From assembly GCF_023336935.1 (NCBI RefSeq), contig NZ_JAMBLR010000004.1, positions 1-64,000 on the forward strand: a DNA stretch of 64,000 bases, in the 5' to 3' direction. The notes under the pieces are model-generated. The model saw nothing but the letters and a program-made list of their open reading frames with translations. It did not search any database and was not told the DNA's origin. Below, piece by piece: positions 60,629 through 64,000 of this stretch. This DNA comes from Phascolarctobacterium sp. ET69. GTDB taxonomy: Bacteria; Bacillota; Negativicutes; Acidaminococcales; Acidaminococcaceae. The translations under genes were made by a program, and so were the position numbers. Each line of letters opens with the position of its first letter. Position 1 is the stretch's first letter.

Positions 60629-60644
60629 ATACCCATACGGGAAT
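60629..60644 (+). promoter_or_regulatory. CsoR-like palindrome, copy 1 (degenerate)
   Basis: ATACCC-ATAC-GGGAAT. The left arm and centre are identical to copies 2 and 3; the right arm has T to A. It is about 95 bases upstream of the promoter of the amino-acid binding protein gene, so its relevance is less certain than for the other copies. Confidence 0.5.
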
Positions 60645-60723
60645 GTAATATGTAATTCTAAAAGATAGAAAAAATAAAACGCATTAAAGTATTTATAAAT
60701 ATAAAAAACTTAATTAAATACAG

Positions 60724-60752
60724 TTGATTTTAGTATTTAACAGGTTTATAAT
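60724..60752 (+). promoter_or_regulatory. Promoter for the amino-acid binding lipoprotein
   Basis: TTGATT (60724-60729), a 17-base spacer and a perfect TATAAT (60747-60752). Confidence 0.7.
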
Positions 60753-60777
60753 AAAAGCATAACCGGATGCAAGGTTT

Positions 60778-60818
60778 ACACTCTCACAATTCTTACAGGT
60801 TGGGGGAGTGTTTTTTTT
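60778..60818 (+). promoter_or_regulatory. Terminator-like leader hairpin that sequesters the SD
   Basis: ACACTCTC (60778-60785) pairs with GGGAGTGT (60804-60811) around an 18-base loop, and eight T directly precede the ATG at 60819. The G-run that must serve as SD (60802-60808) is in the 3' arm. This can act as an attenuator, a translational switch, or both. The triggering ligand or factor is unknown; the preceding segment CCGGATGCAAGG may form the alternative structure. Confidence 0.55.
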
Positions 60819-61592
60819 ATGAAAAAATTACTGCTTGTTGTTATGAGCCTTGTGTGCATGCTTTTGATAGCAGCGTGCGCAGGGCAGAAAGAAGCTGGGG
60901 AGGAAGGTTCCCGGGTACTTAAAGTGGGGCTTGACGCCAACTTTCCGCCTTTTGAGTATTACCAGAAGGGCACGGATAATTTTACCGGGTTTGATGTTGA
61001 ACTTATGCGCGGCGTGGCTGCCAACATGGGTTACAGCGGGGTTGAATTTGTAAATACCGGCTTAAATGATTTAATAAACGGGCTTAACGGCAAGCGTTAT
61101 GATGTAATTGCCTCCGGTTTCAGCGTTACACCGGAAAGGCAGCAGGCGGTTGATTTTTCGGAAAGTTATTTGAATGACGGGTTCAGGATTGCTGTTGCTG
61201 CCGGAAACGATTTTACGGCAGATAATATAAGCGCTTTAAAAGACAAGGTTGTAGCCGTAAAACATAACAGCTTTGCACTGGCAATGGTTAATGATTTTGG
61301 CGGCGCTGCCAAAGTTATTGAAACACCGAGCATAGAAGAAGCAATGGCCAAAGTAATTGGCGGCGAAGCCGATTGTGCCGTAATTTCCAAATCGGCCGGC
61401 AGCTTTTTTATAGCAAACGGTTATGCGGATAAAATTAAATTTGCCTCCGGCGATTTAAAAACAGATAATGTTGCTCTTGCCGTAAGAAAAGGTGACAAAG
61501 AATTTTTAAGCAAATTAAACGAAGGTTTGAGAAACTTTAGAAAATCACAGGAATTTGACCGTTTAAAGAAAACCTACTTTGGTGAATTTTAA
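60819..61592 (+). CDS. Amino-acid ABC transporter substrate-binding lipoprotein (orphan)
   Basis: A 257-residue type II periplasmic binding protein. Lipobox LIAAC (cysteine near 20), then VGLDANFPPFEYYQKGTDNFTGFDVEL, the usual polar amino-acid binding signature, DVIASGFSVTPERQQAVDFS, and a C-terminal EFDRLKKTYFG. It should capture a polar or basic amino acid for an ABC importer. No permease or ATPase gene is adjacent, so it is an orphan receptor using a transporter encoded elsewhere. The start lies directly after an SD-masking hairpin. Confidence 0.9.
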   Translation: MKKLLLVVMSLVCMLLIAACAGQKEAGEEGSRVLKVGLDANFPPFEYYQKGTDNFTGFDVELMRGVAANMGYSGVEFVNTGLNDLINGLNGKRYDVIASGFSVTPERQQAVDFSESYLNDGFRIAVAAGNDFTADNISALKDKVVAVKHNSFALAMVNDFGGAAKVIETPSIEEAMAKVIGGEADCAVISKSAGSFFIANGYADKIKFASGDLKTDNVALAVRKGDKEFLSKLNEGLRNFRKSQEFDRLKKTYFGEF

Positions 61593-61627
61593 TGACTGCT
61601 GGTGTATTAAATAAAAGGATAATGTTT

Positions 61628-61645
61628 TATACCCATACGGGTATA
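61628..61645 (+). promoter_or_regulatory. CsoR-like palindrome, copy 2
   Basis: TATACCC-ATAC-GGGTATA, perfect 7-base arms. It lies about 40 bases upstream of the -35 of the first riboswitch promoter. Half-sites ATACCC/GGGTAT resemble operators of CsoR/RcnR-family metal or persulfide sensors (for example the B. subtilis copZA site, from memory). Confidence 0.65.
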
Positions 61646-61685
61646 CGATATATAAAATTAAATAGTAAAATTTACTGATAGCGTA

Positions 61686-61714
61686 TTTACATTACTGAGA
61701 AGTAGTGCTAAAAT
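61686..61714 (+). promoter_or_regulatory. Promoter of the first cobalamin riboswitch
   Basis: TTTACA (61686-61691), a 17-base spacer ending GTAGTGC and TAAAAT (61709-61714). The same spacer end and -10 recur at 63848-63876. Confidence 0.7.
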
Positions 61715-61733
61715 ATAATCAAGTTAATATTGT

Positions 61734-61842
61734 TGTGCAGCAATGTTAACCGGTGCAAAGCCGGTGCGGTCCCGCCGCTGTAAGGGCACGCCTGTTATGC
61801 AGGCAGGTTTTGGCTAAGCCCAAGCCAGCAGATTGCTGTACA
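61734..61842 (+). ncRNA. Cobalamin riboswitch 1
   Basis: Contains CCGGTGCAAAGCCGG, then GCGGTCCCGCCGCTGTAA, the diagnostic core of the cobalamin class, and a B12-box-like AAGCCAGCAGATTGCTG. TGTGCAGCAAT (61734-61744) pairs with ATTGCTGTACA (61832-61842) to enclose the core. The peripheral domain is short, as in the compact cobalamin-II type. With the terminator at 61919-61961 it should shut off expression when cobalamin is plentiful. Confidence 0.88.
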
Positions 61843-61918
61843 TAAGCATTTAGCTTAGCCTGCGGGAGACGGGTATGTATTGATAATTGCGCATTAAGGC
61901 GTTAATGTATCTTTGCAT

Positions 61919-61961
61919 AAAAACCGTTTCCGAAAAACCGGGGACGGTTTTAATTATTTAT
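61919..61961 (+). terminator. Expression-platform terminator of riboswitch 1
   Basis: AAAACCGTTTCC and GGGGACGGTTTT flank GAAAAACC, followed by AATTATTT. It lies between the aptamer and the SD of the next gene. Confidence 0.75.
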
Positions 61962-61981
61962 TCAGACAGGAGGAATTAAAA

Positions 61982-62341
61982 ATGGCAGAAGATTTTTTGG
62001 GCTATGGCGGAAGATTGGATGAAGAATTTGTTCATGCTGAAAACAAAAGCATAAAAACAGAACCTTTTGAAAAATTTGAGGTGCGTGCCGCGTTTGAAAA
62101 ACCGGAGCTTTTGGACGGGCTTGTACGTTTAAAAACGGCAATGGGTGAAGCAGCCTTTGAAAAATACATTAATCCGCTGGAAAACATTAACATCAGCGGC
62201 AATTCGCTGTTAATACTTGCCGGTGCAGAAAAACTGCGTACTGCCCTTGTAAGCCGCTGGCTGCCGGTAATTAAGGCAGCGTTTAACGTAGTAAACGTAC
62301 GCGTTGTAGGCGGAGGGCGCGGCGGCGTTGACGCTTATTAA
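61982..62341 (+). CDS. Stand-alone DnaA N-terminal-domain-like protein
   Basis: A 119-residue protein. Residues about 40-115 read like the DnaA N-terminal interaction domain (DnaA_N): L..LKTAMGEAAFEKYI.PLENINISGNSLLI, then LVSRWLPVIKAAF.VVNVRVV, matching the family pattern xFETWIxPLxxxxxxGNxLxL...W....Y.P.I. There is no AAA+ or DNA-binding domain. The N-terminal 40 residues are acidic and unassigned. ATG at 61982 with SD AGGAGG; an in-frame upstream ATG at 61913 lies inside the terminator hairpin. It is controlled by riboswitch 1. In other proteins this domain binds helicase or DnaA partners; its role here is unknown. Confidence 0.75.
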   Translation: MAEDFLGYGGRLDEEFVHAENKSIKTEPFEKFEVRAAFEKPELLDGLVRLKTAMGEAAFEKYINPLENINISGNSLLILAGAEKLRTALVSRWLPVIKAAFNVVNVRVVGGGRGGVDAY

Positions 62342-62349
62342 GCAAACCG

Positions 62350-62402
62350 GCCGCAGCGGAAAGAGCGGGGAAGCCAGGAGACCTTACTGTTTTTGCTGCG
62401 GC
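62350..62402 (+). promoter_or_regulatory. B12-box fragment in a hairpin before the porin gene
   Basis: GAAGCCAGGAGACC at 62370-62383 is a textbook B12 box, preceded by GAGCGGG, but no 5' riboswitch core is present upstream. It is enclosed by a perfect stem GCCGCAGC (62350-62357) / GCTGCGGC (62395-62402). I read it as the 3' remnant of a second cobalamin riboswitch, or as a new structure built from one. Confidence 0.6.
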
Positions 62403-62432
62403 TTTATATAAATAAAAAATGGAGGAAAGCAA

Positions 62433-63671
62433 ATGAAAAAAACTTTACTTTTAGCAATGACGATAGCGATGGGAATTACCGCTTCCGCGTACGCGGCAAA
62501 TCCGTTCAGCGATGTTCCGGCAGGGCACTGGGCTTATGACGCTGTAAACAAGCTGGCGGCAGAGGGCGTGGTAGAAGGTTACCCGGACGGCACTTACGGC
62601 GGCGACAGGTTGATGACCCGCTATGAAATGGCGCAGATTGTAGCCAAAGCAATGGCGAAGGGTGCAAATGCAGACAGGCTTGCAGCAGAATTTGCCGGTG
62701 AGCTCGACAGCCTTGGCGTGCGTGTAGCAAACTTGGAAAAGAAAAGCGATAATGTGCGCATTACAGGGCAAATCCGCTATGAATACGGCGACAGAAATGG
62801 CGATATGCAGAAAACTAAAGGCAAAGTGGCACAGCACCGCCTGCGCAGCCGTATTTTTGTAAACGGCAATATTAATGAGGACTGGAGCTACACCGGGCGT
62901 TTTGAAAATAACCAGAGCCTTAAAAACAGCAGCGGTGACGATACCCTGAAATTCAATCAGGCTTATGTAAACGGTAAAATTGGCGGCGCAAAAGTAATTG
63001 CCGGTAAAACAGACCACTATGCAGGCAATGGTTTTATTTATGATGATACCGCCGAAAAAATTGAGCTGTCTTACGGGAAGGATGTAAAACTTACCGCTTA
63101 TTACGGTATTCCCACCGATTATGGTTATGATAAAATGTGGGGTGCATCCGTTGGCGGCAAAGTTGGCAATTTAAGCCTTTCTGCCGGTTATGATAAATTT
63201 CAGGATGCTTTAAATGAAATCCAAGGCTATGGGGTTCCTAACAGTGCAAAAACAGGTTCTGATAACGGCATATGGAATTTAAGCGCCAATTATAAATTCG
63301 GTGATTTTACTTTGGCGGCAACTTATCTTGATTCCGATATTGATTTAAGGGATAATTCCTCATATAAAGACGTTGACACCAACGGTTATGTTGTAGGCCT
63401 TAATTACAAAGGTGCCGATAAAAACAAACCCGGCACATGGGGCCTGTTTGCCAATTACTATGACCAGGGCGCAGGTACTTTTGTGGCGCATACCATGTAC
63501 CCGGGTGACTGGAGTTACTATGTAGACGAAGGCTTTAAAGGCTATATGGTCGGCGGCGGTGTAACCCTTGCCAAAAACATGGTTTACCAGCTGCATTACT
63601 ATGACCTTGAAGGCAAGGAAAGCGGGCTGGATGACCAGGTTATCTGGAGCCGCCTGCAAATTATGTTTTAA
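62433..63671 (+). CDS. SLH-domain beta-barrel porin (OmpM-like)
   Basis: A 412-residue outer-membrane porin of the Negativicutes type. Signal peptide cleaved after AYA (about residue 21), one SLH domain (FSDVPAGHWAYDAVNKLAAEGVVEGYPDGTYGGDRLMTRYEMAQIVAKAM) that binds cell-wall polyamine, a short coiled coil (LDSLGVRVANLEKKSDN), then an amphipathic beta-barrel that starts VRITGQIRYEYG and ends with an aromatic-rich strand finishing in F. SD ATGGAGG. Its position behind a cobalamin riboswitch and a B12 box suggests regulation by cobalamin. Confidence 0.92.
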   Translation: MKKTLLLAMTIAMGITASAYAANPFSDVPAGHWAYDAVNKLAAEGVVEGYPDGTYGGDRLMTRYEMAQIVAKAMAKGANADRLAAEFAGELDSLGVRVANLEKKSDNVRITGQIRYEYGDRNGDMQKTKGKVAQHRLRSRIFVNGNINEDWSYTGRFENNQSLKNSSGDDTLKFNQAYVNGKIGGAKVIAGKTDHYAGNGFIYDDTAEKIELSYGKDVKLTAYYGIPTDYGYDKMWGASVGGKVGNLSLSAGYDKFQDALNEIQGYGVPNSAKTGSDNGIWNLSANYKFGDFTLAATYLDSDIDLRDNSSYKDVDTNGYVVGLNYKGADKNKPGTWGLFANYYDQGAGTFVAHTMYPGDWSYYVDEGFKGYMVGGGVTLAKNMVYQLHYYDLEGKESGLDDQVIWSRLQIMF

Positions 63672-63762
63672 TAAATTAAATTACCTGTACTGCCGGGTTA
63701 AGGCATACGCAGCATAAGCAAAATATTTGCGGACTGCTGCCAGATAAGCTTTATCCGCAAGG

Positions 63763-63785
63763 CGGTGCAGGTTTTGCACTTTTTG
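63763..63785 (+). terminator. Terminator after the porin gene
   Basis: GTGCA and TGCAC flank GGTTT, followed by TTTTT. A second possible stem TTGCGGA/TCCGCAA lies just upstream (63727-63760). Confidence 0.65.
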
Positions 63786-63788
63786 GGA

Positions 63789-63810
63789 GGTATACCCATA
63801 CGGGTATACC
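63789..63810 (+). promoter_or_regulatory. CsoR-like palindrome, copy 3
   Basis: GGTATACCC-ATAC-GGGTATACC, perfect 9-base arms. It lies 38 bases before the -35 of the second riboswitch promoter, the same geometry as copy 2. It is the best copy of the three. Confidence 0.7.
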
Positions 63811-63847
63811 GTATAAAATACTAATTAAAATTTTTAACAAAAAAATT

Positions 63848-63876
63848 ATTTACTTTATTAGTAATTAGTGCTAAAA
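63848..63876 (+). promoter_or_regulatory. Promoter of the second cobalamin riboswitch
   Basis: TTTACT (63848-63853), a 17-base spacer ending TTAGTGC and TAAAAT (63871-63876), a near copy of the promoter at 61686. Confidence 0.7.
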
Positions 63877-63903
63877 TTAAAACATGATAATTGAATAAAC
63901 TGG

Positions 63904-64000
63904 TTAAAGGTGCCTTGTGGCTTAAAATGGAAACCCGGTGCAAAACCGGTACGGTCCCGCCGCTGTAAGCAGCTTTGCAAGTCAGCAGCCTGCCTTTAAT
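63904..64000 (+). ncRNA. Cobalamin riboswitch 2 (runs to window end)
   Basis: TTAAAGG (63904-63910) pairs with CCTTTAA (63993-63999). Between them are CCCGGTGCAAAACCGG, CGGTCCCGCCGCTGTAA and the B12 box AAGTCAGCAGCCTGCC. The aptamer seems nearly complete; its expression platform and target gene lie beyond the window. Confidence 0.88.

Follow-up and report, generated by a model that had tools for sequence, protein, structure and literature searches.

The repeated palindrome, promoter and riboswitch cassette

The window analyzed here, the whole stretch of 64,000 nucleotides from C4:1-64000 in the 1.88-Mb genome of the gut bacterium Phascolarctobacterium sp. ET69, ends with two cassettes in which a short palindrome precedes a promoter that runs into a cobalamin riboswitch. 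In the first cassette, an exact ATACCC-ATAC-GGGTAT palindrome with a TAC-N8-GTA anchor (copy 2; 61629..61644) is followed after 41 bp by a predicted plus-strand promoter, TTTACA-N17-TAAAAT with an extended TG (61686..61714), and then by a partial match to the cobalamin riboswitch family RF00174 (61748..61832, plus strand). A hairpin with a T-run on the same strand (61920..61951), called by consensus only, is the likely terminator of the riboswitch expression platform, and two plus-strand genes follow: orf2 (61982..62341; 119 aa), without a match in Pfam or NCBIfam, and a gene for an OmpM-like outer-membrane porin with an SLH domain (62433..63671; PF00395 and PF07396). The second cassette is that of a nickel-type ABC transporter. 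Its 20-base palindrome, GTATACCCATACGGGTATAC (copy 3; 63790..63809, with the exact 16-mer core at 63792-63807), again stands 41 bp before a plus-strand promoter, TTTACT-N17-TAAAAT with an extended TG (63849..63877), and the riboswitch (63891..64000, plus strand) continues past the window to 64011, with a nikB-type permease gene following at C4:64121. Both promoters are sigma-70-like consensus calls. Both riboswitches were found with the covariance model, and the RF00174 gathering threshold of 31.5 bits is passed twice in the window, at 57.0 and 41.7 bits, the latter by the partial match behind copy 2; the full match of the copy 3 riboswitch, read past the window end, reaches 61.3 bits.

The original prediction, made from the window alone, had set these two palindromes about 40 bases before near-identical promoters leading into cobalamin riboswitches, and this description holds. 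It had also counted three palindromes. Copies 2 and 3 proved to be exact 16-mers one to three bases away from where they had been placed, while copy 1 (60629..60644) carries a mismatch and is probably a chance word. Copy 1 was rejected as a member of the regulon because words with up to one mismatch are not enriched in the genome (6 places, against 5 in the reversed control), which makes it indistinguishable from chance. The nearest promoter found puts it at about −122, and among the loci compared its gene has a relative only in genome G027, where the upstream sequence is too short to inspect.

In the nik and porin cassettes, neither inspection by eye nor a promoter scan revealed a convincing further promoter across the palindrome. 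A MerR-type arrangement was rejected for the riboswitch promoters, since the palindrome lies outside their −35/−10 spacer. The spacer itself (61692-61708 and 63855-63871 in the window) resembles TTATTAGTAAT or TTAATAGGAAT in many cobalamin riboswitch promoters of the genus, independently of whether a palindrome is present and also in G027, and it could be a second operator. As for orf2, it is 87% identical in G001 and G002 and has the same place there between riboswitch and porin; it may resemble the N-terminal domain of DnaA, though no comparison supports this.

Genes associated with the palindrome

The permeases encoded behind the copy 3 riboswitch pass the NCBIfam cut-offs for nickel permeases (NF045470, 391.9 bits against 350; NF045474, 331.7 bits against 300), and further genes of the operon specify two ABC ATPases and a solute-binding protein of family 5. 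This nickel-type transporter probably carries nickel or cobalt. The nickel/cobalt transporter models score below their cut-offs for these permeases, so that cobalt as the transported metal is suggested by the riboswitch. Past the nik operon lie a gene for a heavy-metal P-type ATPase and then a third riboswitch, located before cbiK and a Btu-like transporter.

Further from the window, the word ATACCC-N4-GGGTAT (the N4 word) occurs at a P-type ATPase gene, directly behind its predicted start and roughly 490 bp downstream of the csoR gene described below; the closest solved chains to the P-type ATPase are copper, zinc and cadmium ATPases. A gene for an AstE/AspA-like hydrolase on contig C2 (locus L014, 7072-8037) also has an exact palindrome of its own, at about −81. 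An exact palindrome at this position was seen in four of the six genomes of the genus, these four being the ones read, and no riboswitch is listed at those places. In a locus of Selenomonadales (L127, 1596-2645), a relative of this gene heads a nik operon with a MATE exporter, which hints at the handling of metal chelates.

Specificity of the palindrome

Within the window the word is only weakly unusual: at up to two mismatches it has 4 matches against a shuffle mean of 1.37, and 5 of 100 shuffles reach 4. At the level of the genome, the exact word occurs at 4 places and its reversed control at none. As the original prediction required of a regulatory site, the exact word is tied to promoters and not scattered. 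The genus as a whole, with six genomes, has 12 exact places, again with none for the control, and the other 53 genomes of the family have 11 against 3. N4 words inside open reading frames of G013, G014, G026 (contig C74) and G028 were set aside as chance, and the exact word at C14:233637 of G043 was left uninterpreted. In the five other genomes of the genus, exact N4 sites are confined to nik and, in G002, G003 and G005, the AstE/AspA-like gene, so that the nik cassette has the only exact site in G001 and G004.

To judge specificity, 30 riboswitch loci of the genus were read, leaving out two weak rows (G002:C162 and G001:C7) and a fourth match in G003. The labels nik, porin, orf2 and cbiK come from tblastn and the others from the genome studied here plus upstream similarity; cobU and ridA were assigned from open reading frames in that genome only, where ridA was recognized by its start sequence, and elsewhere from similar upstream sequence. 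Within 300 bp upstream and at up to two mismatches, the word is present at 15 of 16 nik, porin and cbiK riboswitches (nik 6/6, porin 5/5, orf2-porin 3/3, cbiK 1/2) and at 0 of the 14 remaining loci (cobU-type cobalamin biosynthesis 0/6, ridA-type 0/6, weak riboswitches 0/2). When the 310-bp stretch beside each riboswitch was shuffled by mononucleotides, which for minus-strand loci is the other side of the riboswitch, 0.9% of 6,000 shuffles reached two mismatches. The looser TAC-N8-GTA anchor is found at 14/16 and 0/14 of these loci and in 8.5% of shuffles. The word is exact before the nik riboswitch in all six genomes; at the porin riboswitches it has its usual place in 7 of 8 and is mostly degenerate. 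The cassette at G001:C15:23474 consists of orf2 and porin, and at the orf2-porin locus of G002 the two-mismatch word sits at −169, the copy at the usual place having three mismatches.

The anatomy proposed for dual control is conserved and specific within the genus. Where the original prediction had centered on porin genes, the most conserved target is the nickel-type ABC transporter, which was not seen because it is located past the window end.

A single CsoR-family protein

A CsoR/RcnR-family gene had been called for as the matching regulator, and the genome encodes exactly one (C2:462157; PF02583, 90.4 bits against a cut-off of 22.8), the gene upstream of the P-type ATPase whose start region carries the word. 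The predicted protein has 91 aa. Each of the six genomes of the genus has one such gene, and all belong to what we term class B, a single supported clade of 14 rows (100/99) that comprises the six from the genus, four from the related genus g17, one from G026 and three from Selenomonadales, in a tree with few columns and a long-branch warning. In alignment with the CsoR of PDB 4m1p, class B proteins retain the metal ligands C34, H59 and C63 and have Ala or Pro instead of the Tyr that precedes the first Cys of copper sensors. The protein studied here has Asn in line with a Glu of 4m1p near the C terminus, a residue that is important in CsoR. According to the available text of PMC4531530, copper-sensing CsoR proteins have the motif YC.D...H...C, and RcnR/DmeR proteins have [DE]C without H...C; with Ala or Pro before the Cys and H...C present, class B does not fit the latter.

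The genomes of the same family also contain other CsoR genes, here called class A, and these serve to calibrate the word. Among 26 exact N5- or N6-spaced places in the family, 16 lie just upstream of class A genes (11 genomes), compared with 4 places for the reversed control. Since ATACCC-N5-GGGTAT thus stands upstream of a csoR gene itself, the word can be regarded as calibrated as a CsoR operator. In addition, the class A sites with N5 spacing fit the Streptomyces CsoR consensus ATATACCCCTNAGGGGTATAT, as given in the accessible part of PMC3902906.

A similar word also accompanies class B genes. In g17 an N4 word lies about 125 bp past the stop codon of the class B gene, exact in G043, G045 and G055 and with one mismatch in G054, and the other 10 g17 genomes, which are without a class B gene, have no exact N4 word. 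One word in G043, ATACCCGTATGGGTAT, is that of the window on the other strand. In G043 and G055 the first of two sites falls between −35 and −10, before an open reading frame of 25 to 27 residues, and the second lies past that promoter. This small open reading frame, which follows the two palindromes, has a conserved FMFW stretch (L093, 6691-6900; L095, 5013-5210; L098, 3880-4100). A separate observation concerns G021, where a cobalamin riboswitch precedes genes for an InrS-like CsoR-family protein and for an HMA-type protein that looks like a P-type ATPase (L099, 1-1482); the csoR gene there apparently has a site of its own in which the G/C tracts are longer.

Position of the palindrome relative to promoters

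The placed sites fall into two sets, with all promoters being consensus calls and all transcription starts predicted. At the genes for nik, porin, cbiK and AstE-like proteins, which we call uptake-type genes, all 26 sites are upstream of the core promoter, with centers at −84/−83 (n = 15), −81/−82 (n = 4, AstE-like), −42 (n = 2, genus g9) and −48 (n = 5, Selenomonadales). The five others, at the P-type ATPase, two g17 loci and two tetR genes, have centers from −17 to +18, where they overlap the core promoter or come directly after the start. In the nik, porin and cbiK cassettes of the genus that have a site, the gap to the −35 element is 41 bp in 14 of 15 and 40 bp in the other. This comparison covers the sites other than copy 1, the second g17 sites, G045, G054, L201, L213 and the Streptomyces cbtA sites, and one of the 33 rows, G002 m14b, was a wrong-strand reading of the same site and does not count. 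L160, whose sequence ends before the gene, was labeled nik from its upstream similarity to L161 (79% over 500 bp).

The pairing in other bacteria

When 84,980 species, each represented by one genome, were scanned for ATACCC-N3-6-GGGTAT with a riboswitch core 125 to 155 bp further on, 47 stretches were found. Rfam confirms a cobalamin riboswitch at that place in 17 of them, and the other 30, with none over the gathering threshold there, were taken as chance; by a rough estimate, about two riboswitches in the whole collection would carry such a word by chance. The 17 comprise five from the genus, G027, five Selenomonadales loci (including Schwartzia), five from Streptomyces and one from Deltaproteobacteria, the last (L154) and one of the Streptomyces loci (L138) being left uninterpreted. 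The pairing thus recurs in a second group of Negativicutes, the Selenomonadales, and, with N5 spacing, in Streptomyces.

In Selenomonadales the genes served are of the same kind. A nik operon lies downstream at L134 and L161, and at L127 the nik genes share an operon with the AstE-like gene and the MATE exporter. All three loci encode a nikB-type permease that passes NF045470 (383.6, 384.7 and 384.4 bits for L134, L161 and L127, respectively, against 350). At L137, on the same contig as L161, the gene encodes an OmpM-like porin that is 55% identical to that of the window over 148 aligned positions. A class B gene was found in three of the four Selenomonadales genomes with the pairing. At four Streptomyces loci (L140, L146, L150 and L156), the site is N5 spaced and the adjoining gene matches the cobalt transporter protein CbtA (PF09490), a match that for L156 is based on the first 102 residues read. 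The nik site of G026 is likewise N5 spaced, with 9 bp between TAC and GTA. In four Selenomonadales genomes (L201, L202, L203 and L213), a similar conserved palindrome was also noticed around the start of a gene of the tetR family (Pfam was checked in L203 only), behind which comes a radical-SAM-like gene.

Proposed regulation and alternative explanations

Taken together, these data point to the palindrome as the operator of the genome's only CsoR/RcnR-family protein, that of class B, acting on the riboswitch operons for the porin and the nickel-type transporter, an assignment that we consider probable though by no means secured. The anatomy of the cassettes and its conservation are directly visible in the genomes, as are its limitation to the riboswitches of nik, porin and some cbiK genes, the presence of just one regulator and the similar word beside class B genes. 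The dual-control idea is in this way partly supported, as to its anatomy and likely regulator.

With binding, effector, direction and cobalt as the cargo all inferred, the system might work as follows. The operator, some 84 bp upstream of the predicted start of both operons, would allow transcription to be set first by a DNA-bound sensor and then, on the RNA, by cobalamin through the terminator. The metal-free protein may bind the upstream sites and support import, and it may repress efflux from sites located over a core promoter or start, as at the P-type ATPase gene. Metal binding would release it, turning import down and efflux up, so that both arms would serve one aim, import on and efflux off under metal scarcity, with the riboswitch adding end-product feedback. 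For uptake-type genes whose site keeps 41 bp away from −35, an activating or helper role of the metal-free protein is the better fit. Only tentatively, then, do we propose a metal-free CsoR-family activator of cobalt/nickel import that also represses efflux, with the riboswitch vetoing the same import transcripts; if so, it would be the first case of a cobalt importer under a protein metal sensor.

Several observations weigh against this interpretation. The site in the window has 8 bp between TAC and GTA, one base short of the 9 in type 2 CsoR sites. Even among class A genes the word is not universal, nine of them in genus g2 having no site of this kind close by, and a site is present in G027 (73% complete) and G061, in which the class B gene was not found. 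Within the genus, porin sites outside the genome studied here are degenerate, the TAC or GTA anchor is broken in the G001 porin and the usual-place G002 orf2-porin cassettes, and the cbiK riboswitch of this genome is without a palindrome. By arithmetic, the positions −48 (Selenomonadales) and −81 (AstE-like) do not share the helical phase of −84 and −42. Every promoter behind the positional split is a consensus call, and both the operator assignment and the sign of the effect are read from sequence. A strict search of 380 genomes in the class detects the pairing in 7, which belong to 3 of 102 genera, with none for the reversed control; these are lower bounds because the search misses four genomes of the genus in which the distance is longer, and the pairing is not general in the class. 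In addition, no activator precedent for the CsoR family is among the matches listed in the literature, and PMC7689651, in its available text, portrays the sensors of the family as repressors that typically act on exporters.

That last point leads to a different reading of the same operator and protein, in which the apoprotein represses import and an inducer, be it cobalt, nickel, another metal or a thiol species, switches it on; import would then be induced by its substrate and limited by the end product, cobalamin. Repression is what members of the family are described to do, and a tetramer bound at −42 or −48 could block polymerase: the site abuts −35 in two g9 genomes and lies 5 bp before it at the five Selenomonadales loci. 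In the genus itself, the 40- to 41-bp clearance of −35 speaks against such a block, and a metal importer induced by its own metal would amount to positive feedback. We regard this possibility as doubtful but worth serious attention. It would be rather improbable that the palindrome belongs to an activator other than CsoR and unrelated to it, such as a protein of the CRP/FNR type that recognizes TACCC-N4-GGGTA. In favor of this, activators classically bind with centers near −42 and −84, and CRP/FNR-type sites usually have an N4 spacing between their arms; against it speak the similar word beside class B csoR in g17 at repressor positions, the word about 490 bp from csoR in the genome studied here and the N5 spacing at the G026 nik site.

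The remaining explanations deny the palindrome any function. The stretch from the palindrome to −10 is similar among the nik, porin and cbiK cassettes, as would be expected if cassettes of promoter and riboswitch had been duplicated and the palindrome inherited by descent. This, however, would leave unexplained why the AstE-like gene has the word at −81/−82 with no riboswitch listed in the four genomes read, why the nik sites are exact in all six genomes and why the pairing recurs in another family at another spacing, and we judge it unlikely. The notion that the described sites are chance words, for which one can cite the 30 of 47 stretches without a riboswitch over the gathering score and the lack of excess at one mismatch, is disfavored and the least credible of all, given a reversed control of 0 in the genus (zero mismatches) and 0 in 380 genomes (combined pattern), as well as the small share of shuffles that match at two mismatches.

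Comparison with known systems

A close parallel to the proposed CsoR operator is the type 2 operator and repressor of Streptomyces lividans and of Bacillus subtilis copZA, which shares the TAC...GTA inverted repeat with G/C tracts and a CsoR-family regulator. The original prediction of CsoR/RcnR-like arms is upheld in that TAC-CC-ATAC-GG-GTA is a dyad of this kind, with TAC and GTA flanking two short G/C tracts that are 2 to 4 bases apart and with calibration by the class A sites; the spacing differs, being N8 here and X9 (TAC-X9-GTA) in the type 2 sites of PMC3902906, as far as its accessible part goes. Such systems also share a site at a P-type ATPase gene near csoR, and CsoR proteins are textbook repressors bound over an exporter's core promoter, an arrangement that the P-type ATPase site resembles. 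They differ in that the protein described here is without the Tyr before the first Cys and in that most sites of the genus lie well upstream of the promoters of uptake-type genes, many of which have a cobalamin riboswitch.

In the available portions of the sources, the nickel and cobalt sensors RcnR and DmeR (PMC7689651) and InrS, acting at nrsD (PMC4235346), control exporters; RcnR sites are of type 1, TACT-G6-N-AGTA (PMC3902906), and class B proteins lie outside the RcnR/DmeR motif (PMC4531530). The likeness to these sensors lies in the protein family, and cobalt or nickel would be plausible effectors here too.

A CsoR protein is reportedly tied to a metal importer in Bacillus subtilis, at the copper uptake operon ycnKJI, as titles in reference lists have it. 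There the metal is copper and the repressor is YcnK; one of these titles calls the regulation direct and indirect, and the titles mention no riboswitch.

We found no description of a CsoR-type site paired with a cobalamin riboswitch in the titles and opening lines of abstracts from the literature on CsoR, CbtA, B12 riboswitches, porins and cobalt/nickel import. The finding bears on an unsettled question, because a 2021 review (PMC7689651), in its available text, knew of no protein cobalt sensor that regulates a cobalt importer. Were binding to be confirmed, this gap would become directly testable, including whether the CsoR family activates as well as represses, and outer-membrane porins of diderm Firmicutes would join metal homeostasis. 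The pairing could explain how metal import is matched to metal supply and to vitamin demand. Negative feedback of B12 on import is common, according to the same text, and the cassettes described here resemble such control of cobalt import in having an RF00174 aptamer and a likely terminator before metal uptake genes; what sets them apart is that a putative protein operator also precedes the promoter.

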